From positions 1 to 64,000 of the forward strand of contig NZ_VHLL01000004.1 in the NCBI RefSeq assembly GCF_025384765.1: a stretch of DNA of 64,000 bases, given 5' to 3'. The position numbers were made by a program, and so were the translations under genes. This stretch comes from Methanoculleus formosensis (GTDB lineage: Archaea; Halobacteriota; Methanomicrobia; Methanomicrobiales; Methanoculleaceae). Below, piece after piece: positions 13,708-43,057 of the stretch. The notes beneath the pieces were generated by a model, which saw only the letters and a list, made by a program, of their open reading frames with translations, had not been told where the DNA came from and ran no database searches. Position 1 is the stretch's first letter. Each line of letters opens with the position of its first letter.

Positions 13708-13805
13708 GATACCTCTGATGCTCATGCCCTCGAACCCGTACCGGGACCCGGACAATCGAGGCCCCTCCACCGGAATAAGCAAGCGCCCGGGAGAAAACAC
13801 CCAGG

Positions 13806-14159
13806 ACTCATCGCCCGTGTGTTTCGTGAACTGGGCTTGATCGAGCAATGGGGTAGCGGGTTTCGCCGTATTCTGGACGAGAGAAGCAGAACCTGCCTGA
13901 GCCTGTGCTCGAAGAGATCGGGATGAAAGTTCGGTTTACTACTTTTCTCACGGAGGATAGCTCACTCAGGATTAAACCCGAAGCCATAGGGGAAGCTGAG
14001 AAATATGTAACCGAACGTGTAACCGAACATGTAAAGCGTCTTATGATCTGTTTGGAGGAGAGGCCATCAGGAACAAAAGATGCGATGCAATGCCCGGGAC
14101 TCAGTCACCGCCCCACATTTCTGTATGATCGCGTGTTCCACAATACATTAGTATATTGA
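13806..14159 (+). pseudogene. 3' fragment of an AlbA_2/ATPase regulator gene
   Basis: The DNA is about 90% identical by eye to 24453-24770, the C-terminal part of the AlbA_2 gene at 23456-24883. It encodes HRPGLIARVFRELGLIEQWG, then after a 4-bp deletion LPEPVLEEIGMKVRFTTF and so on. There is no N-terminal AlbA_2 domain. The start near 13806 is abrupt, marking a recombination junction. Confidence 0.8.
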
Positions 14160-14179
14160 ACAATCATTCAATATATTGT

Positions 14180-14725
14180 ATGCTCCGCGAGTTCGAGACG
14201 TTCGTCGGGTTCCGGATCCTCGCCTGGTTCCTCACCCACCCAACCGGCGAGATCCACATCAATAAACTCGCCCGGGAGATCGGAGTCAGCCCGGGAAGCG
14301 TCAAATCGTATGCCGACGCCTTCGAGCGCGACGGTCTGATCACCGCCACGCGCCTCGGCACCGCAAGGCTCCTCTCCCTCGACAACGACTCCTTTGCTGT
14401 CCGGGAGTTGAAGCGGGCCTGCATGGCCCTCCTCCTCGTCCGGGCCGGCATCGAGGACCTCGCGCCCGAAAGCATCGCGGTCGCGGTCTACGGGAGCACT
14501 GCGGCGGGGACCTATGATGAGCAGAGCGACGTCGACATCCTGATCATCGGCGATGAGAGCCAGGTCGATCACGGCCGGGTGCCGGCACTGGAGGCGGAAA
14601 GTGATCGAGAAGTGCAGTTGACGATCGTCCCCTACTACCGGTGGGAACAGATGAAAGAGGAGGGCGATCCGTTTGTCGCGAGCGTCCTGCAAAACCACAT
14701 GCTTGTTACGGGGACCGCACTATGA
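14180..14725 (+). CDS. Winged-helix MNT nucleotidyltransferase (antitoxin type)
   Basis: This 181-residue protein has an N-terminal winged helix (EIHINKLAREIGVSPGSVKS, residues about 27-75) followed by a minimal nucleotidyltransferase domain with VYGSTAAGTYDEQSDVDILI (GS-x10-DxD). This domain order is common in archaeal MNT antitoxins that also regulate transcription. ATG 14180 is preceded by a TATA-like ATATATT. The stop overlaps the start of the HEPN-type gene at 14722. Catalytic residues are all present. Confidence 0.85.
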   Translation: MLREFETFVGFRILAWFLTHPTGEIHINKLAREIGVSPGSVKSYADAFERDGLITATRLGTARLLSLDNDSFAVRELKRACMALLLVRAGIEDLAPESIAVAVYGSTAAGTYDEQSDVDILIIGDESQVDHGRVPALEAESDREVQLTIVPYYRWEQMKEEGDPFVASVLQNHMLVTGTAL

Positions 14726-15030
14726 GGTGGCAGGATTGTGTCGACCGCGGCCTCATCCGTGCCGACCCTAAAAACGCCGACGGTATTCTCCGGCAAGAGT
14801 CTCCAATGCTCCGCGGTCTCAGAGCCTGTGGTGCTCTCCTTCTCATCGTTGCAGTTATCTATTCTGTCGCCAGACGGCAGAAGGGCTATGCGTTATACGG
14901 AAATTCGCACTCCTTGCAGGAGAGGCAGAGGTGGCGCCTATCGTGCCGCCTGTATCGCGTTCTGAAAGCAAAGGATGAGAATACGGAAGACGAACCCGAC
15001 GACGACGAAGAGATAGAGAGAGAAGAATAA
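14722..15030 (+). CDS. HEPN partner of MNT, probably degenerate
   Basis: The first 20 residues (MRWQDCVDRGLIRADPKNAD) are a clear match to the HEPN toxins that follow winged-helix MNT genes. After residue 28 the similarity becomes weak: a hydrophobic stretch (ACGALLLIVAVIYSVA), then KGYALYGNSHSLQER, which recalls the HEPN active-site segment in altered form, and an acidic tail (DEPDDDEEIEREE). The frame is open for 102 codons. I think small internal deletions scrambled the core, but a divergent functional protein is possible. Confidence 0.5.
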   Translation: MRWQDCVDRGLIRADPKNADGILRQESPMLRGLRACGALLLIVAVIYSVARRQKGYALYGNSHSLQERQRWRLSCRLYRVLKAKDENTEDEPDDDEEIEREE

Positions 15031-15178
15031 AGGGTAAAGGGATTGTCGTTATCCCCCGCCGAGTGCCTTCACGATCACCGCCACCATCCCGCCTCCCAGC
15101 CTCTTCCCTCACCCGGTGAGCTCAACCTCGCCTGCAGCAAGGGGCCGGCAGCAGAGCCTGCCGCTGTGGACGTCCCTC

Positions 15179-15639
15179 ATGACGACATCGATCTGCCACC
15201 GTAACGGCGTTCACCAACCTCATCCAGGCCGTCATCAACGACAACCCCTTCGGGTGCGTCGGGTATACGACCTAAGCCAGCGAGACCATCGCCCCGATCG
15301 TCCGGAACCGCGAGCACTACACCTTGATGAGTGAACTTCCTCAACGACGAGGGCAAGAAGGTCGGGACCGTCTCCCTGCAGTCCCCCTCGATCGCTGCGT
15401 ATGAGGCGAACGCCGCGGAGGCCCTCGCCAACGCGACCTTCGCAACCGCGATGGGCGGAGTGGCCGAGCGCGACAACGCCCGCGAGTCCTACTACGCTCA
15501 GCTCAAGTGCCACGACCCGTCCAGTGACGACTACTACGTCACCTTCACCCGGAAGACCGTCCGGCTCTCGTCCTACCAGGACGACGCGATCAAAGGCAGG
15601 GTCGAGACCTGGGCCGACGCCGTCCCCGCGCTGGACTGA
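15179..15639 (+). pseudogene. Broken conserved archaeal gene of unknown function
   Basis: Pieces in different frames line up as one protein of about 150 residues: TAFTNLIQAVINDNPFGCVG, ETIAPIVRNREHYT, FLNDEGKKVGTVSLQSPS and ESYYAQLKCHDPSSDDYYVT, ending VETWADAVPALD. There is an internal TAA near 15270 and at least two frameshifts. I believe intact homologues occur in other Methanomicrobiales, from memory only; no function is known. The last 103 codons (15331-15639) remain open. Confidence 0.65.
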
Positions 15640-28714: not shown

Positions 28715-31700
28715 ATGAAAAAACTCACGTATCTGACACTGTTATGTGCAGTCGTCATCGTCGGGCTGCTGGCGCCGCCGGTTGCGGCGGCAGAGATTGC
28801 TCCGGGAGATCTGGTACCGTTTGCGGTCTTCCCCGGGTCGCAGGAGAACCCCGACGTTGACGGAGATATGGTCGTCTGGGAAGACGGCCGGAACGGAAAC
28901 AAAGAGATCTACTTCTCAAACAGTCCGGGCACCTCCGGCACCAGGATAACGAACGATCCTGCCTCACAGGAGAAGCCGTCCATCTCGGGAGACTACATCG
29001 CCTGGCAGGACTATCGAAATGGGAACTGGGATATCTACCTCTATAAGCGCTCGACAGGCGAGACAACCCAGCTCACCAATGACACGGGCAAGCAGTGGCT
29101 GCCGATCGTCCGCGGAAATTACGTTGCCTGGTATGATAGCAGCAGCGGCGATACAAACGTCGTCCTCTACGACATCGCCGCCGGCAGCAAAGACATCATC
29201 GAGTGCGACGCAAAGACGACGATCCCCGGCGGGAGCACCGAGTTCAAGCCCGCACTCTCGGAGAAGTACGTCGCCTGGATCGAAGAGATCGACGAGAGGA
29301 TCCGGTACTACTCCATCGAGGACGGCGAGATAAAAGGGCCGGTATCCACGAGCACCGCCGCTCAGTCCTGGCCCTCGCTCTACGGGAGCGTCGTAGCCTG
29401 GGAGGATAACCGGCACGCGAGCCCCGACATCTACATGACCAATCTCGACAACCCGTCCGGCGGGGAGCAGAGGATCACCTCCGACGGCTCCGACCAGGTT
29501 TCGCCGGCGCTCACCGGTCAGATCCTCGCATGGGAGGACAAGCGGGATCCGCCGAGGAGCATCTACATGTACGACCGCAACAACGGTGAAGAGATGGCTG
29601 TGCCCACCGCCGGCGGCGAACAGCTCTACCCCGCCGCCAGCGGTAACATGATCGTCTGGCAGAAAGCCCGCGGTTCCTACTCGGATCTCTACGCGTTCAT
29701 ATACGATCCCGAAGGAGAACCGGGCGAGGTCACCAGGATCGAGGTTGAACCTCCCACGGCTACGCTGGATATCGGCGATGAGGTGAAGTTCAACGCCACC
29801 TGTTACGACGAGAACAATGACGCCATGCCCGACCTGAAGGTCTCCTGGTCGTGCAGCAACGGAACCGTTGGATACATCGACTCCGGTGGCTACTTCCTCG
29901 CTTACGAAGTGGGTACGGCGACCGTCACCGCGACGGCAGGCGGCATACCCGGAACCGCGACCGTCACCGTCAACGCAGGAGAGCCCGCCGGCCCGGTCGC
30001 AACAGAGGTTGCAATCACACCGCTCACGCCCACCGTCACGGTCAACAATACGGTGGCGTTCGCGGCAACCGTCCGCGACCAGTTCGACCGTGCCATGACC
30101 GGCGTCAACGTCACCTGGGCAAGCAGCAACGAGACCATCGGCACCATCGATAATTCCACCGGCCTCTTCACCGCCCTTGCCGAAGGCACGACGACCGTCA
30201 CCGCAACCGCTGGAAGCGTCTCCGGGACCGCAACCGTCACGGTCACCGCTGAAGAACCGGTCGCGAAAAACATCACGGTCACACCGACCGCGCCCGCACT
30301 CGCGATCGACGCCACTGAGCAGTTCGAAGCAATAGTCCGCGACCAGTTCGGCAACGCCATGACCGGAATTGCGGTCAACTGGTCGTGCAGCAACACGACC
30401 GTCGGGACCATCGATAACTCCACCGGCCTCTTCACCGCCCTTGCCGCGGGCACGGCGACCGTCACCGCAACCGCTGGAAGCGTCACCGGGACCGCAACCG
30501 TCACGGTCAACGCAGAAGACCCGGTAGGGCCGGAAGAGCCGGTCCTGACAAGGATCGCGCTCACGCCGCCCGGAGCCACACTTGACATCGAGGATGTCCA
30601 GAGATTCATGGTGACGGGCTACGACCAGAACGGCAACGTTATGCCCGCCGGTGAGATCGAGTGGGCCTGCAACGACGGAGCCGTCGGGACCATCGACGGG
30701 GACGGATTCTTCACCGCTCTCACCGTGGGTACGGCGACCATCACCGCAACAGCAGGCTCCTGCTCTGCGGAGGTGACCGTCACCGTCAACGCAGAAGAGT
30801 CTGCGCTCGCGAAGATCGTCTTCTTCCCGTCCGCGGTCACCCTGTACCCCGGGGACTCCCTGCAGTTTGAGGCCGTCGGGCTCAACTGCTACGGCAACAT
30901 CGTGCCGGATGCTGCGATCGTCTGGACGAGCAGCAACGAAACCATCGGCACCATCGACGAGGGCGGCCTCTTTACCGCCATCTGTGCAGGCACGACGACC
31001 CTCACGGCGTCGGGCGACGGCGCCACCGGAACCACGACCGTCACGGTATCCTGTGACGAGCCCGTCCTCACCAGCATCGTCGTCACCCCGTCGGCGATCA
31101 CGCTCGCTAATGACGAGACCGCGACCTTCACCGCGACCGCGCTCGATCAGTTCGGCTGTGAAATGTCCGAGAACGTAATCGACTGGGAGTGCGGCGACCC
31201 GTGCGTCGGCACCATCGATCTCTGCAGCGGCGTCTTCCTCGCCGAAGACTGCGGCACGACGACCGTCACCGCAACGGCCGGTGGTATCACCGGGACTGCG
31301 GACGTAGAGGTCACCAGTTGCTCGGGGGTAGGGATATCCCCGTCGGCGATCGTCCTGGACCCCGGGGACGAGTGGCCGTTCACCGTGTATGGCCTGCAGG
31401 ACAATGCTGGCTCTACTGTGGACTGGTCGTGCAGCGACCCGGGTGTCGGTGAGATCACCGCAGACGGCTGTTTCACCGCAATCTGTGAAGGCACCGCGTC
31501 CGTCACCGCGATGATCGACGGAGTCGACGAGGTCGGGCCTGCGACGGTGATGGTCCGGTCGGTGTGCCCGGTCCCGGCGCGGATCGTGGTCAGCCCGTCC
31601 GACTTCACCATCGCCAGCGCGAACGGCCTCCAACTCACCGAGACCGTCTACGACCAGTACGGTTGCGAGATGCCGGAGGCCGTGGTGGTCTGGGAGAGCA

Positions 31701-32797
31701 GCGACCCGAACATCGGCGCCGTCGGTGGGTGCGGTCTCTTCGCCGCCGGCGAGGAAGGTGAGGTGACCATCACTGCATCGATGGACGGGGTCTCAGGCTC
31801 TGCCTGCGTGACCGTCGCCCCCCGGCTCCCGTTCCCGGCCCGCGTCGAGATCGACCCGTCTGAAGCCACACTCGCGCCCGGAGAAACCCGAGTGTTCACA
31901 GCCACGGTCTTTGACCCGAGCGATAACGAGATGGGTTGGGTCAAGATAAAATGGTCATGCCTCGACGACGATGTCGGCACGATCGACCGCTCAGGCCTCT
32001 TCTCGGGAGTCTCACAGGGCTCAACAGAGATAACGGCCCGGGCCGGCAGCGTTGAGAGAACGGCGTCGGTCACCGTCACGGCGGCGTCAACGCCCGACCC
32101 TACACCCGATCCCACACAGACTCCGACTAACCCCGGATCGAATAGCCGCGCCTATAGTGACGGCGGCGGAGACCCCGGCCCCAGTTTCTTTGCAGGGATC
32201 TGCGAGGACCTAAAGAGCGGCGAGACGCACACGTTCTCGGGTATCGACGTCACGTCGGTCGGCAGCATCGCCATCACGGCGGCCGACAACATCCCGAGAC
32301 TGCTGATGACCGTGAAGGAGACGGGGTGCCCCAACCCGGCGGAGCCTCCCGGCAGCACCTACAAGTACGTCGAGATCACCCTCTCGTGGGTGAACCCGAA
32401 CCAGATTGGTGGCGCGACGTTGACCTTCACCCTCCCGGCAAAGTGGCTCGATGAGCACGGCATGGCCCCGGAGGACGTCAGGCTCATGCGCTACGTCAAC
32501 GGTGGTTGGCAGATCCTGGAGACCGAGGTCGTCGATGAAGAGAACGGCAAGTATACCTTCCGGGCGACCACCCCCGGGTTCTCCACCTTCGCCATCGCCG
32601 CGGCGCCGTCGAGCCTGGCGGCATCGGCCGAGGAGATAGACGTCACGCCGGAGGTCACTGAGACGCCCGGGGAGACCGAAGAGGTGACGACGGAGCCGAC
32701 CGAGGCCATCCCAACGACGACGCCTGCGGCACCGCTCGTCTATGCTCCCTTCCTCGCACCGCTGGCCTTCCTCCTCTGGGGAAGAAGGAAGAACTAA
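28715..32797 (+). CDS. Giant surface adhesin with propeller, Big_2 repeats and C-terminal anchor
   Basis: This 1360-residue protein has a signal peptide (KKLTYLTLLCAVVIVGLLAP), then a TolB-like beta-propeller (about 30-335) with repeats of the form YIAWQDYRNGNWDIYLY. Nine Big_2-type Ig-like repeats follow (about 345-1130), each with ITATAG/VTATAG and GTATVTV strands. A PGF-pre-PGF-type domain comes next (about 1160-1310), then a Thr/Pro/Glu stalk, and the end is VYAPFLAPLAFLLWGRRKN, a hydrophobic anchor with a basic tail. It should be displayed on the S-layer and heavily glycosylated. The paralogue at 33335 has seven Ig repeats. Confidence 0.88.
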   Translation: MKKLTYLTLLCAVVIVGLLAPPVAAAEIAPGDLVPFAVFPGSQENPDVDGDMVVWEDGRNGNKEIYFSNSPGTSGTRITNDPASQEKPSISGDYIAWQDYRNGNWDIYLYKRSTGETTQLTNDTGKQWLPIVRGNYVAWYDSSSGDTNVVLYDIAAGSKDIIECDAKTTIPGGSTEFKPALSEKYVAWIEEIDERIRYYSIEDGEIKGPVSTSTAAQSWPSLYGSVVAWEDNRHASPDIYMTNLDNPSGGEQRITSDGSDQVSPALTGQILAWEDKRDPPRSIYMYDRNNGEEMAVPTAGGEQLYPAASGNMIVWQKARGSYSDLYAFIYDPEGEPGEVTRIEVEPPTATLDIGDEVKFNATCYDENNDAMPDLKVSWSCSNGTVGYIDSGGYFLAYEVGTATVTATAGGIPGTATVTVNAGEPAGPVATEVAITPLTPTVTVNNTVAFAATVRDQFDRAMTGVNVTWASSNETIGTIDNSTGLFTALAEGTTTVTATAGSVSGTATVTVTAEEPVAKNITVTPTAPALAIDATEQFEAIVRDQFGNAMTGIAVNWSCSNTTVGTIDNSTGLFTALAAGTATVTATAGSVTGTATVTVNAEDPVGPEEPVLTRIALTPPGATLDIEDVQRFMVTGYDQNGNVMPAGEIEWACNDGAVGTIDGDGFFTALTVGTATITATAGSCSAEVTVTVNAEESALAKIVFFPSAVTLYPGDSLQFEAVGLNCYGNIVPDAAIVWTSSNETIGTIDEGGLFTAICAGTTTLTASGDGATGTTTVTVSCDEPVLTSIVVTPSAITLANDETATFTATALDQFGCEMSENVIDWECGDPCVGTIDLCSGVFLAEDCGTTTVTATAGGITGTADVEVTSCSGVGISPSAIVLDPGDEWPFTVYGLQDNAGSTVDWSCSDPGVGEITADGCFTAICEGTASVTAMIDGVDEVGPATVMVRSVCPVPARIVVSPSDFTIASANGLQLTETVYDQYGCEMPEAVVVWESSDPNIGAVGGCGLFAAGEEGEVTITASMDGVSGSACVTVAPRLPFPARVEIDPSEATLAPGETRVFTATVFDPSDNEMGWVKIKWSCLDDDVGTIDRSGLFSGVSQGSTEITARAGSVERTASVTVTAASTPDPTPDPTQTPTNPGSNSRAYSDGGGDPGPSFFAGICEDLKSGETHTFSGIDVTSVGSIAITAADNIPRLLMTVKETGCPNPAEPPGSTYKYVEITLSWVNPNQIGGATLTFTLPAKWLDEHGMAPEDVRLMRYVNGGWQILETEVVDEENGKYTFRATTPGFSTFAIAAAPSSLAASAEEIDVTPEVTETPGETEEVTTEPTEAIPTTTPAAPLVYAPFLAPLAFLLWGRRKN

Positions 32798-33114
32798 CCC
32801 CACCTTTTTTGGCGCTTTCATGATGCGGTTCCCGCGAGGGCGTGAGTTTACAACCCGTGCGTCGTCACCTTCATCTGCGGCAATCGCCCCCGATACGATT
32901 GCAGGAACCGGGTTTCAGCCCCCACTCCGGGAGCATTCAGGCGGCTCCCGTATTCCGGCCGGCCGCTGGGCATTTCAACACAAAACCGACGCGTAAAAAT
33001 GCCACCGGGGCGATAAGGGCGGGGACTCTTCTATCCAAGGCACTCATCAGTGGTGGGAAAAAGGGGCCGTCCGGCTATCCCTGCACCGATGAGGGGTGAG
33101 GAGGTATTCCAAAT

Positions 33115-33334
33115 TTTATTATAAAATTTTTAGAATAAAACACCGTAAAAGATATATATTTATACCGCGATCCCCCCTCACCGGCAACCCTATGACCGGA
33201 TCTTGAATCGAGATTCGCAGTACTCCCGCCGGGAGCTCGCCGGAGCACCTGCTTTAGCCGGTCTGTTTGTGCCTACCGGCAGGTATGCACCACGGTCCCG
33301 CGAGCGGAGAGCAGAGTTAACAAGGGGGAAATGA
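33115..33334 (+). promoter_or_regulatory. Promoter and leader of second adhesin gene, similar to the first
   Basis: TATAAAATTTTTAGAATAAA and AAGATATATATTTATACC match the first promoter closely. The leader again holds GGAGCACCTGCTTTAGCCGG and a hairpin GTGCCTACC-GGCA-GGTATGCAC. AAGGGGGAAATGA precedes the start. The region 32798-33114 between the first adhesin and this promoter has no gene. Confidence 0.5.
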
Positions 33335-36300
33335 ATGACCAAAAAAATGCATATGGCACTGTTTTGTGCAGTCGCCATCATCGGACTGTTGATATCGCCG
33401 GTTACGGCGGTAGATCCTGCAGCGGGGGAGCCTCTCTATCACCCCTTCGACTACGCGCAGGATCACCCTGATATCGACGGCGACATGATCGTCTGGGAAG
33501 ACGACCGGAACGGTCAGAAGGACATCTATTTCGGAACGATAGACGCCTTTCGGGCGAGTTCCGGTTACACCGGCGAGAGGATAACCACCGATCCGAACTC
33601 GCAGGAGAGACCGTCCATCTCGGGAGACTACATCGCCTGGCAGGACGACCGGAACGGGAACCCGGACATCTACCTCTACGAGCGCTCTACGGAGACGACG
33701 ACGCAGCTCACCAACGACACGGGCAAGCAGTGGCTGCCGGCCGTCAGCGGGAACCACGTCGCCTGGTACGACGATAGCAGCGGCAGAACCAACATCGTCC
33801 TCTACGACATCGCCGCCGGAGAGGTGAAGGACGTCATCGACTCCGACGCAAAGACGACGATCCCCGGCGGAGCGACCGAGTTCAAGCCCGCACTCTCGGA
33901 GAACTACGTCGCCTGGGTGGAAGAAGCAGACCAGAATGTCTATTATTACGACATCGCAGCCGAAACAATCGCAGGCCCGGTGTCCACGAGCACGTCTATT
34001 CAGTCCTGGCCCTCGCTCTCCGGGAGCGCCATCGCCTGGGAGGATTATCGCCATGGAGACTTCGGCGGCGAGATCTACATGACCGATCTCGACAACCCGT
34101 CCGGCGGAGAGAAGAGGATAACCAACGCCCCCGGCGATCAGGTCTCGCCGGCACTCAGCGGGAGTATCATCGCCTGGGAGGATATGCGGGACGGAAACCG
34201 GAGCATCTACATGTACGACCTCGCCACCGACGAAGAGATGTCCGTGTATCTCTCCCCGGAGCCCAATGATGAACAACTCTACCCTGCCGTCAGCGGCAAC
34301 TCGATCGTCTGGCAGAGACGCGCAACCCCCAACTCGAACCTCTACATCTTCGTCTATGAACCCGGGGCGCCGATCGAACCGGTCGTAACGACCATCGAGA
34401 TCGACCCGGAAATAACCACCGTCACAGTCAACAGCACGGTGAAGTTCACGCCAACCGTCCGCGATCAATTCAACGCCACCATGACCGGCGTCGAGATCAA
34501 CTGGACGAGCAGCAACAAAACCATCGGCACCATCGATAATTCCACCGGCCTCTTCACCGGGGTTGCCGTGGGTTTAACGACCGTCACCGCAACAGCAGGC
34601 AACGCATCTGCCTCGGCGCTCGTCACCGTCGAGGCGCCGGTAGAACCGCCGGTAGAACCGCCTGAAGTGGCGAGCATCACAGTCAAACCGCCCACGACCA
34701 CCCTGCAGATCGGTGGCACACAACAGTTCGAGGCAACCGTCCGCGACCAGTTCGACCGTGCCATGACCGGCGTCAACGTCACCTGGGCGAGCAGCAACAA
34801 GACCATCGGCACCATCGATAATTCCACCGGCCTCTTTACCGCCCTTGCCGAAGGCACGACGACCGTCACCGCGACTGTCGGCGAGATCACCGGAGAAGCG
34901 ACCGTCACCGTCAGCGCTGAAGCGCCGCCCGACCCGGTCGCAGCGCGTATCACGCTCACATCGGATAGAACCACCGCCGTGGTCAACGAGACAGTGACCT
35001 TCTCTGCAACGGTCTATGACCTGAATGACATCGAATTGCCGGATGTCACGGTCAACTGGACAAGTAGCGATCCGGCCGTCGGAACCATCAACGAGACCGG
35101 TCTCTTCACCGCGATTGGCGAAGGTACAGCGAACGTCACGGCAACGGCAGGCAACGCATCCGCCTCGGCGCTCGTCACCGTAGAAGCACTGCCCGAACCG
35201 ATTCTGGACAATCTTTATATCACCCCGTCCGGGGCCACCCTCGCGATCGGCGATACCCAGCGATTCGTCGTGACCGCCAGCGACCAGGACGGCAACGCCA
35301 TGACCAACGTCTCGGTCAACTGGACGAGCAGCGATGAGGACGTCGGAACCATCGACGAGGCCGGTCTCTTCGTCGCGCTTGCCGAAGGCACGGCGACCGT
35401 CGCCGCAACGGCAGAGAACGTAACCGCGACGGCGACCGTCACGGTCATCAACAACGAGCCCGCTCTTGCCAGCATCGCCGTCACACCGTCGGAGATCACT
35501 CTCGTTTCCAATGACACGGCAGCATTCACCGCGACCGCTCTCGACCAGTTCGGCAACGAGTTCTCCGGCATTGAGATCGCCTGGACGAGCAGTGATCCGG
35601 CCGTCGGAACCATCGATGCGGACGGGCTCTTCAACGCGGTTGCCGACGGCACGACGACCATCACCGCAACGGCAGAGAACATAACCGGAGAAGCGACCGT
35701 CACGGTCGCCACGGCGTCCTCAGGCGTCGTGGTCTCCCCGTCGACGATCACCCTGGGTGCCGGGGAGTCCCGGCAGTTCACCGTACACGGCCTGCAGGAC
35801 AACGCAGGTTCTGCTGTGGACTGGTCGTGCGATGACGAAGCCGTCGGCACCATCGATACCAACGGGCTCTTCAACGCGGTTGCCGACGGTATAGCGACCA
35901 TCACCGCAACGGCAGAGAACGAGACCGGAACCGCGACCGTGACCGTCGCATCGTCGCCGGTCGCAACCCGCATCGAGATCGAACCGGCCACGGCCACCAT
36001 TCAGCCCGGAGAGACCCGGGCGTTCACCGCGACCGTCTTTGACCAGCGCGATAGCGAGATGGACTGGATCAGGGTCACCTGGTCGTCCTCCAACCCGGAC
36101 GTCGGCACGATCGACCGCGCCGGCCTCTTTGGGGCCTTCGCCGAGGGATCGACGGAGATAACAGCATCGGCAGGCGAAGCGGCGGGAACAGCGGCCATCA
36201 CCGTCTCGACGACCGTCGTGCCTGAGCCCACCCCGGTCAACCCCGGAGGCGGCGGCGGGTCGGTAGCCTACAGCGATGGCGGCGGCGGCAGCAGCGAACC

Positions 36301-36922
36301 CACGTTCTGCGCAAGGACGTGCGAGAATCTCGCGAGCGGCCAGACCTTCACGTTCTCGGATCTGACCACCTCATCGGTGAGCAGTGTCAACATCACCGCG
36401 GCGGGTAACATTCCGCAGATGATGCTGACCGTGAAGAAGACGAACGCGCCATCTGCGGCAGAATCTCCTGCCGACGACGTCTACGAGTACGTCGCTATCA
36501 CCTCCTCATGGGTGAACCCGAGCCTGATCGGCAACGCAACAGTATTCTTCAGCGTTCCGACCGACTGGCTCGGAGCCCGCAACATGACCCCGGAGGACGT
36601 CAGGCTGATGCGCTACGCCAACGGCGCCTGGGAATCCCTGGAGACCGAGGTCGTCGGTGAAGAGAGTGGTTTGTACCGCTTCCGGGCGATCACCCCCGGG
36701 TTCTCCACCTTCGCCATCGCCGCGTCGCCGTCGAGCCTGGCGGCATCGGCCGAGGAGATAGATGTCACGCCGGAGGTCACTGAGACGCCTGAAGAAACCG
36801 GAGAGGTGACGACGGAGCCGACCGAGGCCGTCCCGGCGACGACGACGCCTGCGGCACCGCTCGTCTACGCGCCCTTCCTCGCACCGCTGGCCTTCCTCCT
36901 CTGGGGAAGAAGGAAGAACTAA
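33335..36922 (+). CDS. Giant surface adhesin, paralogue of the preceding one
   Basis: This 1195-residue protein has the same order: signal peptide (ending LLISPVTAV), propeller repeats (about 35-350), seven Big_2-type Ig-like repeats (about 360-1000), a glycine/serine linker, a PGF-pre-PGF-type domain (about 1010-1140), a Thr/Pro stalk and VYAPFLAPLAFLLWGRRKN at the end. Stretches of more than 100 bp are almost identical to the first gene, for example 34738-34860 compared with 30064-30185, suggesting gene conversion or recent repeat shuffling. The C-terminal 60 codons of the two are also nearly identical. Confidence 0.88.
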   Translation: MTKKMHMALFCAVAIIGLLISPVTAVDPAAGEPLYHPFDYAQDHPDIDGDMIVWEDDRNGQKDIYFGTIDAFRASSGYTGERITTDPNSQERPSISGDYIAWQDDRNGNPDIYLYERSTETTTQLTNDTGKQWLPAVSGNHVAWYDDSSGRTNIVLYDIAAGEVKDVIDSDAKTTIPGGATEFKPALSENYVAWVEEADQNVYYYDIAAETIAGPVSTSTSIQSWPSLSGSAIAWEDYRHGDFGGEIYMTDLDNPSGGEKRITNAPGDQVSPALSGSIIAWEDMRDGNRSIYMYDLATDEEMSVYLSPEPNDEQLYPAVSGNSIVWQRRATPNSNLYIFVYEPGAPIEPVVTTIEIDPEITTVTVNSTVKFTPTVRDQFNATMTGVEINWTSSNKTIGTIDNSTGLFTGVAVGLTTVTATAGNASASALVTVEAPVEPPVEPPEVASITVKPPTTTLQIGGTQQFEATVRDQFDRAMTGVNVTWASSNKTIGTIDNSTGLFTALAEGTTTVTATVGEITGEATVTVSAEAPPDPVAARITLTSDRTTAVVNETVTFSATVYDLNDIELPDVTVNWTSSDPAVGTINETGLFTAIGEGTANVTATAGNASASALVTVEALPEPILDNLYITPSGATLAIGDTQRFVVTASDQDGNAMTNVSVNWTSSDEDVGTIDEAGLFVALAEGTATVAATAENVTATATVTVINNEPALASIAVTPSEITLVSNDTAAFTATALDQFGNEFSGIEIAWTSSDPAVGTIDADGLFNAVADGTTTITATAENITGEATVTVATASSGVVVSPSTITLGAGESRQFTVHGLQDNAGSAVDWSCDDEAVGTIDTNGLFNAVADGIATITATAENETGTATVTVASSPVATRIEIEPATATIQPGETRAFTATVFDQRDSEMDWIRVTWSSSNPDVGTIDRAGLFGAFAEGSTEITASAGEAAGTAAITVSTTVVPEPTPVNPGGGGGSVAYSDGGGGSSEPTFCARTCENLASGQTFTFSDLTTSSVSSVNITAAGNIPQMMLTVKKTNAPSAAESPADDVYEYVAITSSWVNPSLIGNATVFFSVPTDWLGARNMTPEDVRLMRYANGAWESLETEVVGEESGLYRFRAITPGFSTFAIAASPSSLAASAEEIDVTPEVTETPEETGEVTTEPTEAVPATTTPAAPLVYAPFLAPLAFLLWGRRKN

Positions 36923-37314: not shown

Positions 37315-37503
37315 GAGGTCATCCCAAAAAGATCTCCGAACCTTCGGTATACCCTAACCGGAGCCCTTAATTCCCAGGTATCCACCATCTGAGCCACATC
37401 CTGAGCCAGGGGGATGAAACGACTTCCCATTGGGTATCGCCACGCGGGGGAGGGTCCGGCAGGGGGTGTCCCCCTCCCGGTAACGGTGTTTTGGGACAAC
37501 TTC
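37315..37503 (+). mobile_element. MITE family copy D (189 bp)
   Basis: Closest to copy A; the ends are GAGGTCATCCCAAAA and TTTTGGGACAACTTC. Flanked by ACC at 37312-37314 and 37504-37506, a clean 3-bp target duplication. It lies between genes. Confidence 0.9.
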
Positions 37504-37556
37504 ACCGAGAGGGGATCTCAGGAGAAGAAGAGGAGGGGAAGAGTCCCGTCCTCGTA

Positions 37557-39731
37557 TCACTCCACGACGAAGTCGCCGTTCATGTCGGGGTGGACGTCGC
37601 ACTGGAAGTAATAAGTCCCCGGCTCGGAGGGAGCCGTGAAGGTGTAGGTGATCTCGGCCGGCCCGGTGATGACATCGCCCACGAAGATCTGCTCCGACCG
37701 GAGGGGACTGTCGTAGACCGCGACGTTGTGGGGGATACCCTGGTCCTGGTTGTCAAAGACCATCGTCACCTCCGCCCCCGCCGGCACCGTGATGGTGTTC
37801 GTGTCGAACGCGAGATTGTCGGCGGCGATGTTCACCGTCACGGCACCCCCGGCCGCCGGGGTCTCGTTCCCGGTCTGACCCCCGACCGGGGGCATGGTGG
37901 TCGGCGTGACGTTCATCGTTGCTGGCGGCGTGACATTCTCCGTTGGTGTCGGCGTGACATTCTCCGTTGGTGTCGGCGTGACATTCTCCGTTGGTGTCGG
38001 CGTGACATTCTCCGTTACCATCGGGGTCACGTTCTCCGTCGGAGCGGGGCCGTTGCCGGTGGGCGCCACGACCCGCCAGACCCGGCCGGTGCTGGTAGAG
38101 TTGTCCGGACCGCCCACATCGTTCGTCAGCACGTAGAGGTCCTGGTTGGCGTCCTCGCCGAACCCGCGCAGGAACATCCCCAGGGTCTCGTTCTCCTGGC
38201 CGGTGATGTTCACCGACTGGGCCTCCCACATAGAGTTTGCCTCAGCGGTCAGGTTTGCAGCGGACTCCGGTGCGGTCCACCCTTCCGGCGGCGTCGCGGC
38301 GAGGAGGGTGCCGTTCCCCACCGTCCGGCTGTCGCTCCAGTAGCCGAAGACGTACTTCCCTTCGAGATTCGGAGCGGCAGTGCCGCGGTAGACGTTGCCG
38401 CCGACGACGACGATGCCGAGATCACGGCCGCCCTCGAAGATGGGGCCGATCAGCGGCTCGCCCAGGTAGCCGGTGGTGTTGCAAGACTCCGGCGGGGCCG
38501 TGGTGTTGTTCGGGTCGAAACAGTGCGTGCCCTCGCGGATGTTCCAGCCGTAGTTTCCGCCGCGGTAGACGACGTCCACCTCCTCGAAGAGATTCTGGCC
38601 CGCATCGGCGACGAAGAGCGAGTTGTTGCCGCCGGAGTCAAAGGACATGTAGGCCGGGTTCCGGAATCCGTAAGCGTAGATCTCGGGCGGGATGGAGTCG
38701 TAAGCGTAGGCATCGAGGATCTCGGTCTGGTTTTCCGCAAACGGGTTGCTGGCGGGTATGCCGTAGAGGCTGCCGGCAAACGTCGTCCACGTCGGCTCGG
38801 GCGGGTTCGCGGTCCGGTTGACGGTCATGTTATCGGTCTGGTTCACCATCCCGGTCATGTTATCGGTCTGGTTCACCATCCCGGTCATGTTGTCGGTCTG
38901 ATTCCCGTCGGTAACGTTGTCCACATCGATCCTGAGCACCTTGCCGTAGATCTTCGTCAGGTCTTGGGCGTTCCCGATGCCCGGGGTGTGACCGTTCCCG
39001 ACGTCGTTCGCCCTCCCGGCATCGCCGAGCGATACATACAGGTAGCCGTCGGCCGGGCTGAAGGCGAGCTGGCCGCCGTTGTGGTTATGGTAGGGCTTGT
39101 CGATGTACATCAGCACCTTCTCAGAGGTCAGGTTCACCCGGTTCGGGTCATCGGGGTCGACCTGGAACTCGGAGATGTGGTTCGTGCAGTTCCACTCCTC
39201 GGGAGCCCCCTGGCGCAGGGGTGCGCTGTAAAAGGCGTAGACTTTGCCGTTCTCCGAGAAGTTCGGGTGGAACGCGACCGAGAGCAGGCCGCGCTCGTCG
39301 TAGGTCGGGTTGAGGTCGACCAGGTTCTCCCGGAGGTCCAGGAACGGCTCGGAGAGCGTGGTCCCGTTCGCGTCGACGGCCCAGACCACGCCGATCTGGT
39401 CGACGACGAAGAGTCGCCCGGTCCCGTCGTCGGGCGCCGTGAGCGCGAGGGGCGAAGTGAAGTTCTCCGCGACGAGTTCAAGACCGATCTCGGCCGTAAC
39501 GTTCGAGACCGTCGTCCGGGTCGCGTTGTCCTGGAGTTCCGCAGCAAGCGGGGAACCCGTGTTCGTCAGGTCCGTCGCGTTGCCGCTCATGTTCTGCATG
39601 CTTTCCATCGTCTGGTTTGAACTCTCGTTGCCATCACTGGTGTTGCTCGATCCCACCACCTGTGCACCCGCACCCGCGATGAGCGCGAGAACCAGGAGGA
39701 AGGATGCTATGACAAGGGTAACTTTTGTCAT
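37557..39731 (-). CDS. Secreted PQQ/GSDH-type sugar dehydrogenase fused to a cupredoxin
   Basis: This 724-residue protein has a signal peptide (VTLVIASFLLVLALIAGAGA), a Glucose/Sorbosone dehydrogenase-type six-bladed propeller (about 80-545; ERGLLSVAFHPNFSENGKVY, NHNGGQLAFSPADGYLYVSL, YGFRNPAYMSFD), a stalk of NVTPTPTE repeats, and a C-terminal plastocyanin-like domain (about 625-724). The latter has the type 1 copper ligands H (GIPHNVAVY), C and H (QCDVHP) and M (PDM). The family oxidises sugars using PQQ. Whether PQQ is available to this archaeon is unknown, so the propeller may serve another purpose. The copper domain could accept the electrons. It is rich in N-glycosylation sequons. Confidence 0.85.
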   Translation of the reverse strand: MTKVTLVIASFLLVLALIAGAGAQVVGSSNTSDGNESSNQTMESMQNMSGNATDLTNTGSPLAAELQDNATRTTVSNVTAEIGLELVAENFTSPLALTAPDDGTGRLFVVDQIGVVWAVDANGTTLSEPFLDLRENLVDLNPTYDERGLLSVAFHPNFSENGKVYAFYSAPLRQGAPEEWNCTNHISEFQVDPDDPNRVNLTSEKVLMYIDKPYHNHNGGQLAFSPADGYLYVSLGDAGRANDVGNGHTPGIGNAQDLTKIYGKVLRIDVDNVTDGNQTDNMTGMVNQTDNMTGMVNQTDNMTVNRTANPPEPTWTTFAGSLYGIPASNPFAENQTEILDAYAYDSIPPEIYAYGFRNPAYMSFDSGGNNSLFVADAGQNLFEEVDVVYRGGNYGWNIREGTHCFDPNNTTAPPESCNTTGYLGEPLIGPIFEGGRDLGIVVVGGNVYRGTAAPNLEGKYVFGYWSDSRTVGNGTLLAATPPEGWTAPESAANLTAEANSMWEAQSVNITGQENETLGMFLRGFGEDANQDLYVLTNDVGGPDNSTSTGRVWRVVAPTGNGPAPTENVTPMVTENVTPTPTENVTPTPTENVTPTPTENVTPPATMNVTPTTMPPVGGQTGNETPAAGGAVTVNIAADNLAFDTNTITVPAGAEVTMVFDNQDQGIPHNVAVYDSPLRSEQIFVGDVITGPAEITYTFTAPSEPGTYYFQCDVHPDMNGDFVVE

Positions 39732-39886
39732 GCGACCCGGAGCATGACACCGGAACAGATAAGGGTTGTGGCGGATCTTCCGGCCGGGTTTTAGCTGTTT
39801 ACAGCCAGAGATTCAAGAAACTTATCCATCCCGGTAGAGATCTCCGCATCAGCCGTATGCGGAAAGGGTTGAAGATGGAGGCCGGG

Positions 39887-40375
39887 TTACTCCACGACGA
39901 AGTCACCGTTCATCTCGGGGTGGACGTCGCACCGGAAGTAGTAAGTCCCCGGCTCGGAGGGAGCCGTGAAGGTGTAGGTGGTCTCGACCGGCCCGGTGAC
40001 GGTGTCGCCCACGAAGATGGCCGTGGCCGCCGAGGAGTCGGTGTAGACCGCGAGGTTGTGCGGGATGCCGTCGTCCTGGTTGTCGAAGTTCACCGTCACC
40101 TCCGCCCCTGCCGGGACCGTGATCGTCTCCGTATCGAACGCCATGATGTCGGCGGTGAGATCGATGGTCACGGCCTCGCCGCCGGTCGCGGTGGTCGCTG
40201 CCGTTGTAACGCTCATTGTCGCTGTATCGGTTTCAATCGGTGTCGTTGCCACGGGGGTCCCGGTTTCGGTCGGTATCGTCGTCGGCTGGGTGGCGTTGTC
40301 ACCCGGCGAGACACACCCTGCGGCCAGGATGCTGGCAGCGGCGACGACGAGTGCAAGGAGGAGAACAGGTTTCAT
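39887..40375 (-). CDS. Cupredoxin-domain lipoprotein
   Basis: This 162-residue protein starts KPVLLLALVVAAASILAAGC, a lipoprotein signal with lipobox LAAGC. A Thr-rich linker follows, then a plastocyanin-like domain with IPHNLAVY and YYFRCDVHPEM, giving the four type 1 copper ligands. Its last 95 residues closely match the C-terminal domain of the dehydrogenase at 37557-39731. It is therefore either a soluble electron acceptor for that enzyme or a duplicate of its domain. It acts on the outer face of the membrane. Confidence 0.85.
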   Translation of the reverse strand: MKPVLLLALVVAAASILAAGCVSPGDNATQPTTIPTETGTPVATTPIETDTATMSVTTAATTATGGEAVTIDLTADIMAFDTETITVPAGAEVTVNFDNQDDGIPHNLAVYTDSSAATAIFVGDTVTGPVETTYTFTAPSEPGTYYFRCDVHPEMNGDFVVE

Positions 40376-40493
40376 GCGGGAGACCACCCCTGACCATCTA
40401 TTTATACGTTGTCCTCCCGGGCCGGATGAAGGGAGATAAGAGGTGAGGAGTGCGGGGCAGCCCCGTTCTCTTCACGCTGGTTTGCTCCTGCAT

Positions 40494-40578
40494 CACTCCG
40501 CGATGAGATTCCTGGGGGTGGGCGTCGCACTAGAAGTATGTCCCGGATTCGGACGCAGCCGTGAAGGTAGGTGACCCG
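40494..40578 (-). pseudogene. Third cupredoxin, short remnant
   Basis: The + strand sequence (GGGGGTGGGCGTCGCACTAG and GCAGCCGTGAAGGTAGGTGA) is a degraded version of the C-terminal cupredoxin DNA at 39895-39980. Only the DVHP-to-TFTAAS part remains, with indels. The surrounding 40376-40757 has no other gene. Confidence 0.6.
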
Positions 40579-40757
40579 GCATGCGGAGCCAGTACTTCAC
40601 TAAAACGGTGAGGTAATCTTCAAGAGGTCAACTCATCGACCCCTACTGGGAGCGGGGGAGGGAGCACGGGGGGGTGTTCCTCATCGGGCACAATCCTCCG
40701 TCGAGTGGGGCCGGTTTCCTCGACAGGGTTAAGTGAGGAGGCGCCGTATCCCGTCGT

Positions 40758-41102
40758 ATGATACGCACGAAACGGGTCTACGAAGAACCCTCGGAGACCG
40801 ACGGGCTCCGGGTCCTCGTCGACCGGCTCTGGCCCCGGGGCGTCTCGAAGGAGAGGGCGAACCTCGACCGGTGGGAGAAGGACCTTGCACCGACGAATGA
40901 ACTGCGGAAGTGGTTCGGGCACGACCCGGCGAAGTGGGAGGAGTTTCTCCGGCGTTACCGGGTCGAGGTCGAGGGGAAGGAAGAACTCCTCGCCGAACTC
41001 CAGAAGGAGGCGACCGCGGGGACGGTCACGCTCCTCTACGCCGCAAAGGACGAGGAGCACAACAACGCCGTGGCGCTGAAGCGGTATATCGAAGAGAAAT
41101 AG
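40758..41102 (+). CDS. DUF488 family protein
   Basis: This 114-residue protein reads IRTKRVYEEPSETDGLRVLV, then DRLWPRGVSKERANLDRWEK and LLYAAKDEEHNNAVALKRYI. These are the signatures of DUF488 (YeaO-like), whose biochemical role is unknown. It is 44 bp upstream of the CODH-family gene and in the same direction, so it may share its transcript. The protein is cytoplasmic. Confidence 0.88.
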   Translation: MIRTKRVYEEPSETDGLRVLVDRLWPRGVSKERANLDRWEKDLAPTNELRKWFGHDPAKWEEFLRRYRVEVEGKEELLAELQKEATAGTVTLLYAAKDEEHNNAVALKRYIEEK

Positions 41103-41146
41103 GCGGCACCGATACTTTTTTACAACTCAGATGCGGTCACTCCCCC

Positions 41147-43057
41147 ATGACCATGGAGAGCGACAGGATATCCTACCACGACTCAGTCCGGACCGTCTAC
41201 GAACGGCTCAAGAAGGACGGCATGTCCAACGTCTGGGACCGCTACGAGGCCCAGGGCTTCGGGAACGACCCCGACAAGCGGTGCGGCTTCTGCCAGGCGG
41301 GCGCCCGGTGCGACTTCTGTTCGAACGGCCCCTGCCGGGCCGACGCAAGCCGGAACCACCGGGGGGTCTGCGGGATCAACGCCGACGGCATGGCGATGCG
41401 GATGATGCTCCTCCGGAACGTCATGGGCGCGTCGAACTACCACTTCCACGCCCAGCAGGCGGTCCGGACCCTCCGGGCGACCGCGGAGGGAAAGACCCCG
41501 TTCTCGATCGCCGAGCCGGAGAAACTCCGGACGTTTGCCGGGCGGCTCGGTATCGATGCGACCGGAAGCGACGCCGATGTCGCACTCCGGCTCTGCGACT
41601 TCGTCGAGGAGGACTTTCACCGGTTCACCTACGAACCGAGCCGGATCGTCGAGCAACTCGCACCGCCGGAGCGAAAAGAGGTCTGGAAACGCCTGGGGCT
41701 CTTCCCGGGCGGGATCTACGGGGAGACGATCGTCGTTACCGCGGCCAGCCTGACCAACGTGGATGGGTGGTACGCGAGCCACGCCATGCGGGCGATGCGC
41801 CTCGGGGTCGCGATGGCCTACCAGAGCCAGATCGTCCTCGAGTACATCCAGGACATCCTCTACGGTATCCCGCAACCGCACCCCATGCGGGTCGACCTCG
41901 GGGTGCTCGACCCCGACTACGTCAACATCCTCCCGAACGGCCACGAACCCTTCCTCGGGTTCGCCCTCATCGACCTCGCCCACGCCGACGAGTGGCAGCA
42001 AAAGGCAAAGGCAGCGGGGGCGAAGGGGCTCCGGGTCATCGCGAACATCGAGACCGGGCAGGAACTGATCCAGCGCCGGAAGATGGACAACGTCTTCTAC
42101 GGCTACACGGGAAACTGGATCATGCAGGAGGCGGTCCTCGCCACCGGGGCAGTGGACGTCTTTGCCGCCGATATGAACTGCTCCCTCCCGCTCGACCCCC
42201 TCTACGCCGAGAAGTACCACTTCAAACTGATCCCGGTCAGCGAAGTCGTGGTCTTCGAGGGCGGGACGGACCGGCTCGAGTACGCCCCCGAGGAGGCAAA
42301 GGAGCAGGCGGCGGCCCTCCTCCAGATGGGGATCGAGAACTTCAAGGAGCGGCATGCGAAGATCGAACCGATCCGCGGCCTTCCCGTGCGGGAGGCGGTG
42401 GTCGGGTTCGCCCCCGAGAGCATCGTCGCGGCGCTCGGCGGGAGCCTTGATGCGCTGCTCGGGGCGATCAAGGACGGCACCATCCGGGGCATCGTCGGGC
42501 TCGTCTCCTGCACCACGCTGCGCGACTCCGGGCAGGACATCCACACCGTCGCGGTCGCACAGAACCTGATCGCCCGCGACATCCTGGTCCTCGGGATGGG
42601 CTGCGGCGTCGCCGCGCTCCAGGTCGCCGGGCTCTGCTCACCGGAGGCGAAGGAGAAAGCCGGGCCGGGGCTCAAAGGGCTCTGCACGGCGCTCGGGGTG
42701 CCGCCGGTGCTCGGGTTCGGGACCTGCACCGACACCGGCAGGTGCGCCGACCTCCTCTTCTCGGTCTCCGACGCCCTCGGCGGGGTGCCGATCCCGGACC
42801 TCCCGGTCGCCGTCGCGGCTCCCGAGTACATGGAGCAGAAAGCGACGATCGACGCCCTCTTCGCGCTAGCGCTCGGCGCCTACACCTACGTCAACCCGGT
42901 CCCGACCGTGACCGGCGGGCCGGATCTGGTGAAACTCCTCACCGAGGACCTCCCCGGCGTCACGGGCGGGGTGCTCCACGTCGAGACGGACGCAAGAGAG
43001 GCGGCGGAGGGGATGCTCGGGCACATCGAGGCGAAGCGGAAGAAACTGGGGCTATAG
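41147..43057 (+). CDS. cooS: CODH-family (CooS-like) Ni/Fe-S protein with hybrid-cluster-type ligand set
   Basis: This 636-residue protein has the full length and fold of monofunctional CO dehydrogenase. The N-terminus has C46-x2-C49, C55, C58, C63 and C75. C55/C58/C63/C75 match the B-cluster; C46-x2-C49 is the CX2C form of the D-cluster instead of CX7C. At the active site I align H266 (NGHEP), C345 (MNC), C455 (LVSC), C486 (GMGCG), C527 (GTC) and K565. The position of the canonical ligand C295 of the C. hydrogenoformans CODH-II is E302 (NIETGQE), and residue 563 is Glu in EQK, as in hybrid-cluster protein. Database annotation would be CO dehydrogenase, but the ligand set suggests a different cluster and reaction. 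ATG 41147 and 41153 are both plausible starts. Confidence 0.8.
   Translation: MTMESDRISYHDSVRTVYERLKKDGMSNVWDRYEAQGFGNDPDKRCGFCQAGARCDFCSNGPCRADASRNHRGVCGINADGMAMRMMLLRNVMGASNYHFHAQQAVRTLRATAEGKTPFSIAEPEKLRTFAGRLGIDATGSDADVALRLCDFVEEDFHRFTYEPSRIVEQLAPPERKEVWKRLGLFPGGIYGETIVVTAASLTNVDGWYASHAMRAMRLGVAMAYQSQIVLEYIQDILYGIPQPHPMRVDLGVLDPDYVNILPNGHEPFLGFALIDLAHADEWQQKAKAAGAKGLRVIANIETGQELIQRRKMDNVFYGYTGNWIMQEAVLATGAVDVFAADMNCSLPLDPLYAEKYHFKLIPVSEVVVFEGGTDRLEYAPEEAKEQAAALLQMGIENFKERHAKIEPIRGLPVREAVVGFAPESIVAALGGSLDALLGAIKDGTIRGIVGLVSCTTLRDSGQDIHTVAVAQNLIARDILVLGMGCGVAALQVAGLCSPEAKEKAGPGLKGLCTALGVPPVLGFGTCTDTGRCADLLFSVSDALGGVPIPDLPVAVAAPEYMEQKATIDALFALALGAYTYVNPVPTVTGGPDLVKLLTEDLPGVTGGVLHVETDAREAAEGMLGHIEAKRKKLGL

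Follow-up and report, generated by a model that had tools for sequence, protein, structure and literature searches.

Organization of the locus

The window analysed here is the full 64,000 nt stretch that begins contig NZ_VHLL01000004.1 of Methanoculleus formosensis (G+C content 60 %), and the feature under study, at positions 37557–40578, is a cluster of cupredoxin genes. The genome that harbours it, 2.65 Mb in 19 contigs, has two mcrA loci and is thus that of a methanogen. The cluster encodes a 724 aa protein in which a GSDH-type β-propeller is followed by a cupredoxin tail, and a small putative cupredoxin lipoprotein, and beyond the latter lies the remnant of a third cupredoxin coding end (Table 1). 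The first-pass annotation of this DNA had described a GSDH-like enzyme with a C-terminal type 1 copper domain and a cupredoxin lipoprotein at this locus, and the Pfam matches confirm the domains of both, a lipobox-like LAAGC sequence suggesting the lipoprotein. The copper-tailed GSDH-like propeller appears to belong to an exported redox cluster that is common to relatives, and the whole would be a variant of known systems.

Table 1. Features of the cupredoxin cluster and its flanks (positions in the window)
Feature	Position	Strand	Basis
GSDH-type propeller + cupredoxin coding sequence, 724 aa	37557..39731	-	Pfam scan, sequence, alignment of 20 relatives
GSDH-type β-propeller, approximately residues 92-556	38064..39458	-	Pfam, alignments
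Low-complexity Pro/Thr linker with T-E-N-V-T-P-x repeats	37857..38063	-	Read directly from sequence
Cupredoxin domain 1; H in IPHN, C-x2-H-x2-M loop CDVHPDM	37560..37865	-	Pfam, domain comparison
Putative cupredoxin lipoprotein coding sequence, 162 aa from ATG; signal sequence, spacer, cupredoxin domain 2 (CDVHPEM; 39890..40204)	39887..40375	-	Pfam, sequence, model
Remnant of third cupredoxin 3′ end	~40512..40574	-	blastn
DUF488 protein, cluster flank (likewise in several relatives)	40758..41102	+	Pfam
Anaerobic CO dehydrogenase CooS, cluster flank (likewise in several relatives)	41138..43057	+	Prismane/CODH, TIGR01702 above cut-off
PD40/Big_2 surface-type protein, opposite flank	33335..36922	+	Pfam

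The propeller protein

The 724 aa protein matches the Pfam GSDH family (PF07995) with an E-value of 1.1e-27 (97.6 bits, cut-off 25), and its tail matches Cupredoxin_1 (E-value 2.2e-10) and Copper-bind (3e-7); the cut-off of the TIGR03606 model is not reached (52.7 against 434.55 bits). A signal peptide at the N-terminus and repeated N-V-T triplets in the linker were read by eye, and the triplets are possible N-glycosylation sequons. GSDH matches in the genome are confined to this gene, which is hit in two pieces. A 709 aa open frame runs antisense to it (37491–39620, + strand) and is most likely a side effect of G+C-rich codon usage.

Three residues of the propeller, H217, R357 and N358, are invariant across an alignment of 20 sequences that reaches down to 46 % identity. 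When the propeller is aligned with E. coli YliI, H217 corresponds to H147 and R357-N358 to R214-N215, and in an alignment with sGDH the latter pair lies opposite R228-N229, so the propeller seems to keep a candidate catalytic His-Arg-Asn set. YliI K314 and R341, which we take to be the equivalents of sGDH K377 and R406, the basic residues anchoring the carboxylates of pyrroloquinoline quinone (PQQ), lie opposite S466 and F520 in one low-identity alignment made without a structure. The closest solved sequences in the PDB are HHIP chains, with E-values of 5e-27 for a single-sequence search and 3e-54 for a profile. The propeller probably does not act as a self-sufficient PQQ enzyme.

The cupredoxin domains

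The lipoprotein gene product matches cupredoxin in Pfam with an E-value of 1.4e-10; its lipobox-like LAAGC, read by eye, occupies residues 17–21 counted from the ATG, and the reading frame is open also from a GTG at 40387. Each of the 57 complete domains in the loci of relatives and the window, both window domains included, retains all four type 1 ligands (H, C, H, M); this set is the 62 cupredoxin matches minus five partial ones. Among the partial domains omitted is C1:12357 of the same genome, whose visible sequence has the ligands too. The ligand loop is C-x2-H-x2-M in 43 of the domains, which we take to be the amicyanin loop type, and C-x2-H-x3-M in the other 14. Methylamine dehydrogenase, the partner of amicyanin, is a quinoprotein. 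The window domains themselves stay well under the cut-off of the amicyanin equivalog TIGR02657 (30.1 and 29.1 against 110.2 bits).

A model of the cupredoxin domain of the lipoprotein (predicted local distance difference test score, pLDDT, 76) aligns with auracyanin (Z 10.2, root-mean-square deviation 2.7, 93 aligned) and with rusticyanin (Z 9.5, root-mean-square deviation 2.9, 100 aligned; Foldseek E-value 6e-6), and its Foldseek E-value against amicyanin is 7e-6. Fold and His-Cys-His-Met set are those of a type 1 copper cupredoxin, and copper binding by the window domains is predicted. The genome also has six matches over the cut-off of a copper ATPase model, the same model being positive in 13 of 14 control genomes.

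Cupredoxins are common in the group, with a match in 37 of the 40 family genomes and one over the Pfam cut-off in 99 of 199 genomes of the order. At E-values up to 1 the genome of the window gives six cupredoxin matches, of which three exceed the Pfam cut-off. Outside the window, C1:12357 (L082:8355-8669, - strand) is a small cupredoxin, some 105 aa long and with no obvious signal peptide, that resembles one beside the GSDH + cupredoxin gene in G006, G007, G008, G012 and G013, and a 439 aa protein on contig C8 (L083:2017-3333, - strand) combines a weak cupredoxin match with a fasciclin domain and a DUF4399-like part.

Distribution and carriers in relatives

Part of the 724 aa protein is matched in 38 of the 40 family genomes (E-value ≤ 0.001). 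The match is one piece covering at least residues 52–558 in 19 of these, and in the remaining matching genomes the pieces are shorter, being two neighbouring parts of a more distant copy or still less. In the relatives the same cupredoxin domain is borne by four kinds of carrier, namely the GSDH propeller, an eight-bladed PQQ-like propeller, a DUF4399-like protein and the lipoprotein. The PQQ-like propeller of L041 matches Pfam PQQ with an E-value of 1.8e-44; for the copy in L042 the nearest solved chain is a quinohaemoprotein alcohol dehydrogenase (E-value 2e-23), the vicinal Cys pair of which lies opposite a gap. The DUF4399-like carrier scores 22 to 27.5 bits in four proteins, below the Pfam cut-off of 28.

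Tail states were scored at 20 loci of 19 genomes, counting the 16 genomes with a closer GSDH orthologue and omitting the more distant copies of G021–G023, where a tail was not found. The GSDH tail is a cupredoxin in seven of the 16, fasciclin in five and neither (at an E-value of 1e-3) in three, and in one the contig ends; G014, which has an additional tailless GSDH copy, was counted as fasciclin. The propellers with fasciclin in place of the copper domain are at L046:15547-17820, L052, L053, L055 and L016.

Coupling of the two domains extends outside the family. A scan of genome contigs, in which near relatives may be left out, gave six loci, and in two of these, from Methanosarcinales and Methanoperedenaceae assemblies, the cupredoxin lies ahead of the GSDH propeller in very long proteins; GSDH/cupredoxin coupling therefore occurs in both domain orders. 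These two proteins, at L065:5482-9583 and L066:2063-7882, combine cupredoxin, GSDH and SdrD_B; that of L065 additionally has CHRD, and that of L066 matches cytochrome c weakly (22.0 bits against a cut-off of 21.3).

Relationships of the domain copies

The first-pass annotation took the two window domains to be nearly identical and hence recently duplicated, and this did not hold. They are identical at 72 of 102 amino acid positions and in 252 of 311 aligned columns of the DNA, and the differences are unevenly placed, with 57 of 216 upstream sites differing against only four of the final 84 nt. In a tree of the 57 domains the GSDH tail of the window is placed first with those of G010 and G018 (support 97/69) and then with G016 (94/85), and the lipoprotein domain groups with the lipoprotein of G018 (99/95). 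The tree was built from few columns, 15 of the 51 inner branches in it are drawn open, and GSDH, PQQ-like and DUF4399-like carriers are intermixed in its tail clade; two domains labelled 'small' because their loci are cut (G016_C29_9468 and G008_C9_17453) belong to PQQ-like and GSDH carriers. Because each window domain groups with its counterpart in other species, the two are, as judged from sequence, old paralogues, and their duplication predates the split from G018. Recent duplication is contradicted by the tree together with the site patterns.

It is the 3′ end of about 85 nt that is nearly identical. Comparison with the G018 counterparts gives differences at 26 of 216 upstream and 9 of 84 3′ sites for the GSDH tails, and at 28 of 216 and 10 of 84 for the lipoprotein domains. 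In the quartet formed with G018, 28 upstream sites favour orthology and five the paralogue pair, against two and five in the 3′ part (Fisher P 0.006). With five relatives the same test, on small numbers, gives P values from 0.006 to 0.16, and the evidence is therefore only suggestive that the last ~85 nt were homogenized by partial gene conversion in the window's own lineage.

A third, decayed copy had also been claimed, and it is real: by blastn the remnant matches the first domain within the window (E-value 4e-10, 65 columns at 80 %), and translation of the match meets an internal stop. It is, however, probably not a tandem copy of the other two. The remnant and its flanks (40376–40770) were searched against 15 loci of relatives, and the best matches fall at the 3′ ends of genes for a PQQ-like propeller with cupredoxin (L056, E-value 4e-18; L041, 5e-17), that of L041 extending into the intergenic DNA preceding the lipoprotein gene. 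The cupredoxin ends of other carriers rank slightly lower, from 1e-12. The remnant's place is occupied in G010 and G016 by a PQQ-like carrier gene, which adjoins the lipoprotein gene. The remnant is best explained as the 3′ end of a gene for an eight-bladed quinoprotein-like propeller with a cupredoxin tail. From these matches and the gene position in G010 and G016 it follows that a second copper-tailed propeller was probably once present in the lineage of the window; the window cluster appears to be a reduced version in which this carrier has been deleted to its last ~60–90 bp.

Synthesis of PQQ

A search for PQQ synthesis genes, which the first-pass annotation had proposed as a check, was negative. 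PqqC was found in none of the 40 family genomes, of which 26 are 90 % complete or better (the positive control, pSymB of Sinorhizobium, scored 428 bits; none of the 14 standard controls was positive), and PqqE in none of 10 genomes over the cut-off (control 610 bits). A PQQ maker was sought among the PqqE-like radical SAM matches and rejected, all of them except the control lying below the PqqE cut-off; two such proteins of the G004 cluster score best with the NirJ2/AhbD and pseudo-SAM/NirJ1/AhbC models, below the cut-offs of those models as well. Of the earlier label 'PQQ-type dehydrogenase', the GSDH propeller (PF07995) stands, but a working PQQ enzyme is unsupported, with PqqC and PqqE not found in the genomes searched, HHIP nearest and the presumed anchors changed. 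The proper label should be 'GSDH-like', not 'PQQ-dependent', and since PQQ synthesis genes were not found in these searches the protein is probably part of a surface electron-transfer module and not an ordinary sugar dehydrogenase.

CydA-like and haem-synthesis genes

In some relatives the cluster contains further redox genes. At L046 (G004) two CydA-like proteins (Pfam E-values 6e-14 and 7e-17) are clustered with two cupredoxin genes and the GSDH gene, together with an AhbA gene just over its cut-off (141.8 against 140 bits); two radical SAM genes there, AhbC/AhbD/NirJ-like, stay below theirs. The G014 cluster likewise encodes paired CydA-like membrane proteins and has genes of haem synthesis, and G017 and G021 hold parts of the set. 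CydA-like matches occur in six of the 40 family genomes and in none of the other 34, that of the window among them. His columns are conserved in the six aligned rows, and two of these columns align, in a match that is weak (E-value 4e-4), with His residues of a bd oxidase of solved structure. The pairs resemble CydAA′ of other archaea. Gene position suggests that a haem oxidase is a possible partner of the cupredoxins in species with the pair. The CydA-like proteins (PF01654) are about 550 aa long and mostly paired, being found at L046:11994-13661 and 13797-15419 (G004) and also at L088, L090, L091 and L055. The genome of the window has an AhbC/AhbD-like radical SAM pair, one member of which is fused to an AhbA-like part, outside the window (L081; G000:C6, ~30500–33700). 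In a recent survey no methanogen group is listed with cytochrome bd and, among methanogens, full haem synthesis is given only for Methanosarcinales (PMC7618691), and the CydA-like pair therefore deserves separate attention.

Neighbouring genes

Large open reading frames with a similar end are found in several relatives on the side of the cluster occupied in the window by the PD40/Big_2 gene. This gene and the neighbouring Big_2 surface-type gene at 28715–32797 (both + strand) encode a common C-terminal sorting-like end, PLAFLLWGRRKN.

Interpretation

With moderate confidence we propose that the two genes specify a two-part extracytoplasmic copper electron-transfer module, made of a secreted copper-tailed propeller and a lipid-anchored cupredoxin. 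The first part would be a secreted GSDH/HHIP-like β-propeller bearing a type 1 copper domain on a flexible, possibly glycosylated linker, and the second a lipid-anchored copy of that domain. The tail would shuttle single electrons between the bound or oxidized partner of the propeller and the lipoprotein, which might then relay them along the outer face of the membrane. The computed support consists of the domains, the cupredoxin fold, the ligands, the export-type sequences, the presence in relatives and the four carriers. Copper electron transfer at the outer surface, as first suggested, is thus plausible from the 57 intact ligand sets, the modelled fold, the signal peptide and the lipobox-like sequence.

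Several observations weigh against such a module. The full-length model of the propeller protein is poor (pLDDT 48, from six sequences) and was excluded from the fold search, so the geometry of propeller and copper domain is not given by it. Two proteins that are not known as blue copper proteins, EfeO (Z 9.6) and coagulation factor VIII (Z 8.9), score close to the blue copper proteins in the fold comparison; a cupredoxin fold by itself is no proof of copper, and the argument for copper therefore rests on the ligands. The propeller occurs with fasciclin in five of the 16 genomes and without a recognized tail in three, so the copper fusion is dispensable for it. There is no obvious donor or acceptor gene for the lipoprotein in the window, and multihaem cytochrome c554, the one family searched, was not found in the genome.

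The rival explanations draw on the same data. The propeller might be a non-enzymatic surface protein, an HHIP-like binding or scaffold protein or an adhesin, whose copper tail serves buffering or resistance, and we consider this unlikely. HHIP is the best solved relative, fasciclin, an adhesion domain, replaces the tail in five of 16 genomes, a gene for a large Ig-like surface-type protein flanks the cluster and metal ATPases are encoded in the genome; but the candidate catalytic residues do not vary in 20 sequences down to 46 % identity, the axial Met and the other type 1 ligands, kept in every one of the 57 domains, go beyond the needs of simple storage, and the same tail is carried by a PQQ-like propeller. 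We give less credence to a PQQ-dependent sugar dehydrogenase that would scavenge PQQ from bacteria and pass electrons from sugar oxidized at PQQ to the copper tail and on to the lipoprotein. Its strongest points are membership of the GSDH family by Pfam, the invariant H217, R357 and N358 aligned to YliI (and the last two also to sGDH), and the presence among the matches of amicyanin, which has the C-x2-H-x2-M loop and is paired with methylamine dehydrogenase in the title of PDB entry 1mda. These are set against the PqqC and PqqE results in 40 and 10 genomes, with a positive control for both, the S466 and F520 at the positions of YliI K314 and R341 (presumed PQQ anchors by equivalence to sGDH), and the proximity of HHIP, which is not known to bind PQQ.

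Defence against O2 or NO, in which the cupredoxins would feed the CydA-like haem oxidase of the same cluster in some species, the species of the window being without the oxidase, seems to us improbable. The CydA-like pair, AhbA and radical SAM genes of the G004 cluster and the His columns conserved in the six aligned rows, two of the columns weakly aligned to bd oxidase, are in its favour, but the linkage is positional only, and CydA-like matches are missing from 34 of the 40 genomes, of which 37 have a cupredoxin match. The boldest idea, that copper carriers take the place of quinones and cytochromes c on the methanogen surface, with the cupredoxin placed on several propeller enzymes that use a cofactor other than PQQ and on a lipoprotein, which in some species would feed a CydAA′-like haem oxidase made with the neighbouring haem-synthesis genes, is the one to which we assign the smallest chance.

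If the two-part electron-transfer module is real, there would be modular copper wiring on the surface of methanogens, in anaerobic archaea once surveyed as copper non-users, with a bearing on electron uptake from partners or metals and on oxygen tolerance. Labels of the kind 'PQQ-dependent dehydrogenase' in methanogens may mislead as to the cofactor. The locus also supplies small testable proteins, two domains of 100 aa and one propeller.

Comparison with known systems

Cupredoxin-fused GSDH proteins of methanogens are the subject of no paper among the matches listed in the open-licence literature. The window protein resembles sGDH, E. coli YliI and the Pyrobaculum protein 3a9g in its GSDH-family propeller (by Pfam) and in the aligned active-site His and Arg-Asn, but differs in the two changed positions presumed to anchor PQQ and in the C-terminal copper domain; it is nearer HHIP in sequence, and PQQ synthesis was not found (PqqC in 40 genomes, PqqE in 10). 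HHIP, for its part, is the best PDB match of the propeller at the level of the family only, and is an animal Hedgehog-binding protein that is not known to have a copper domain. With amicyanin, auracyanin and rusticyanin the window cupredoxins share the fold and the ligand order H, C, H, M. They differ from amicyanin in falling under its equivalog cut-off (about 30 of 110 bits) and in being fused to large carriers, and 14 of the 57 domains have the C-x2-H-x3-M loop.

Copper proteins had been called unexpected in strict anaerobes, and an older survey indeed classes 21 of 21 anaerobic archaea examined as copper non-users (PMC2147054); but the 99 of 199 genomes of the order with a cupredoxin, and the cupredoxins of Methanosarcina barkeri (PMC6315138), lessen the surprise. 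For Thaumarchaea, a flow of electrons from PQQ/GSDH enzymes to plastocyanin-like cupredoxins has been proposed (PMC7300363, PMC6657660), an archaeal likeness to the present case; the accessible text of these papers does not state a fusion of the PQQ dehydrogenase to its carrier, and the organisms differ in being putative aerobes with a PQQ synthase gene (PMC7300363).

In M. barkeri, surface cupredoxins and PQQ-domain proteins are raised during direct interspecies electron transfer, and the authors, finding no PQQ synthesis genes, suggest another cofactor (PMC6315138). Cupredoxins of known potential lie between 150 and 680 mV, which, as the same authors remark, is high for a route leading to methanophenazine (PMC6315138); by analogy this caution would hold for the window module too. 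The M. barkeri proteins are listed as separate and belong to a methanogen of another order, whereas those domains are joined in one protein in the window; the likeness lies in methanogen surface cupredoxins that accompany quinoprotein-like proteins without PQQ synthesis genes (PMC6315138).

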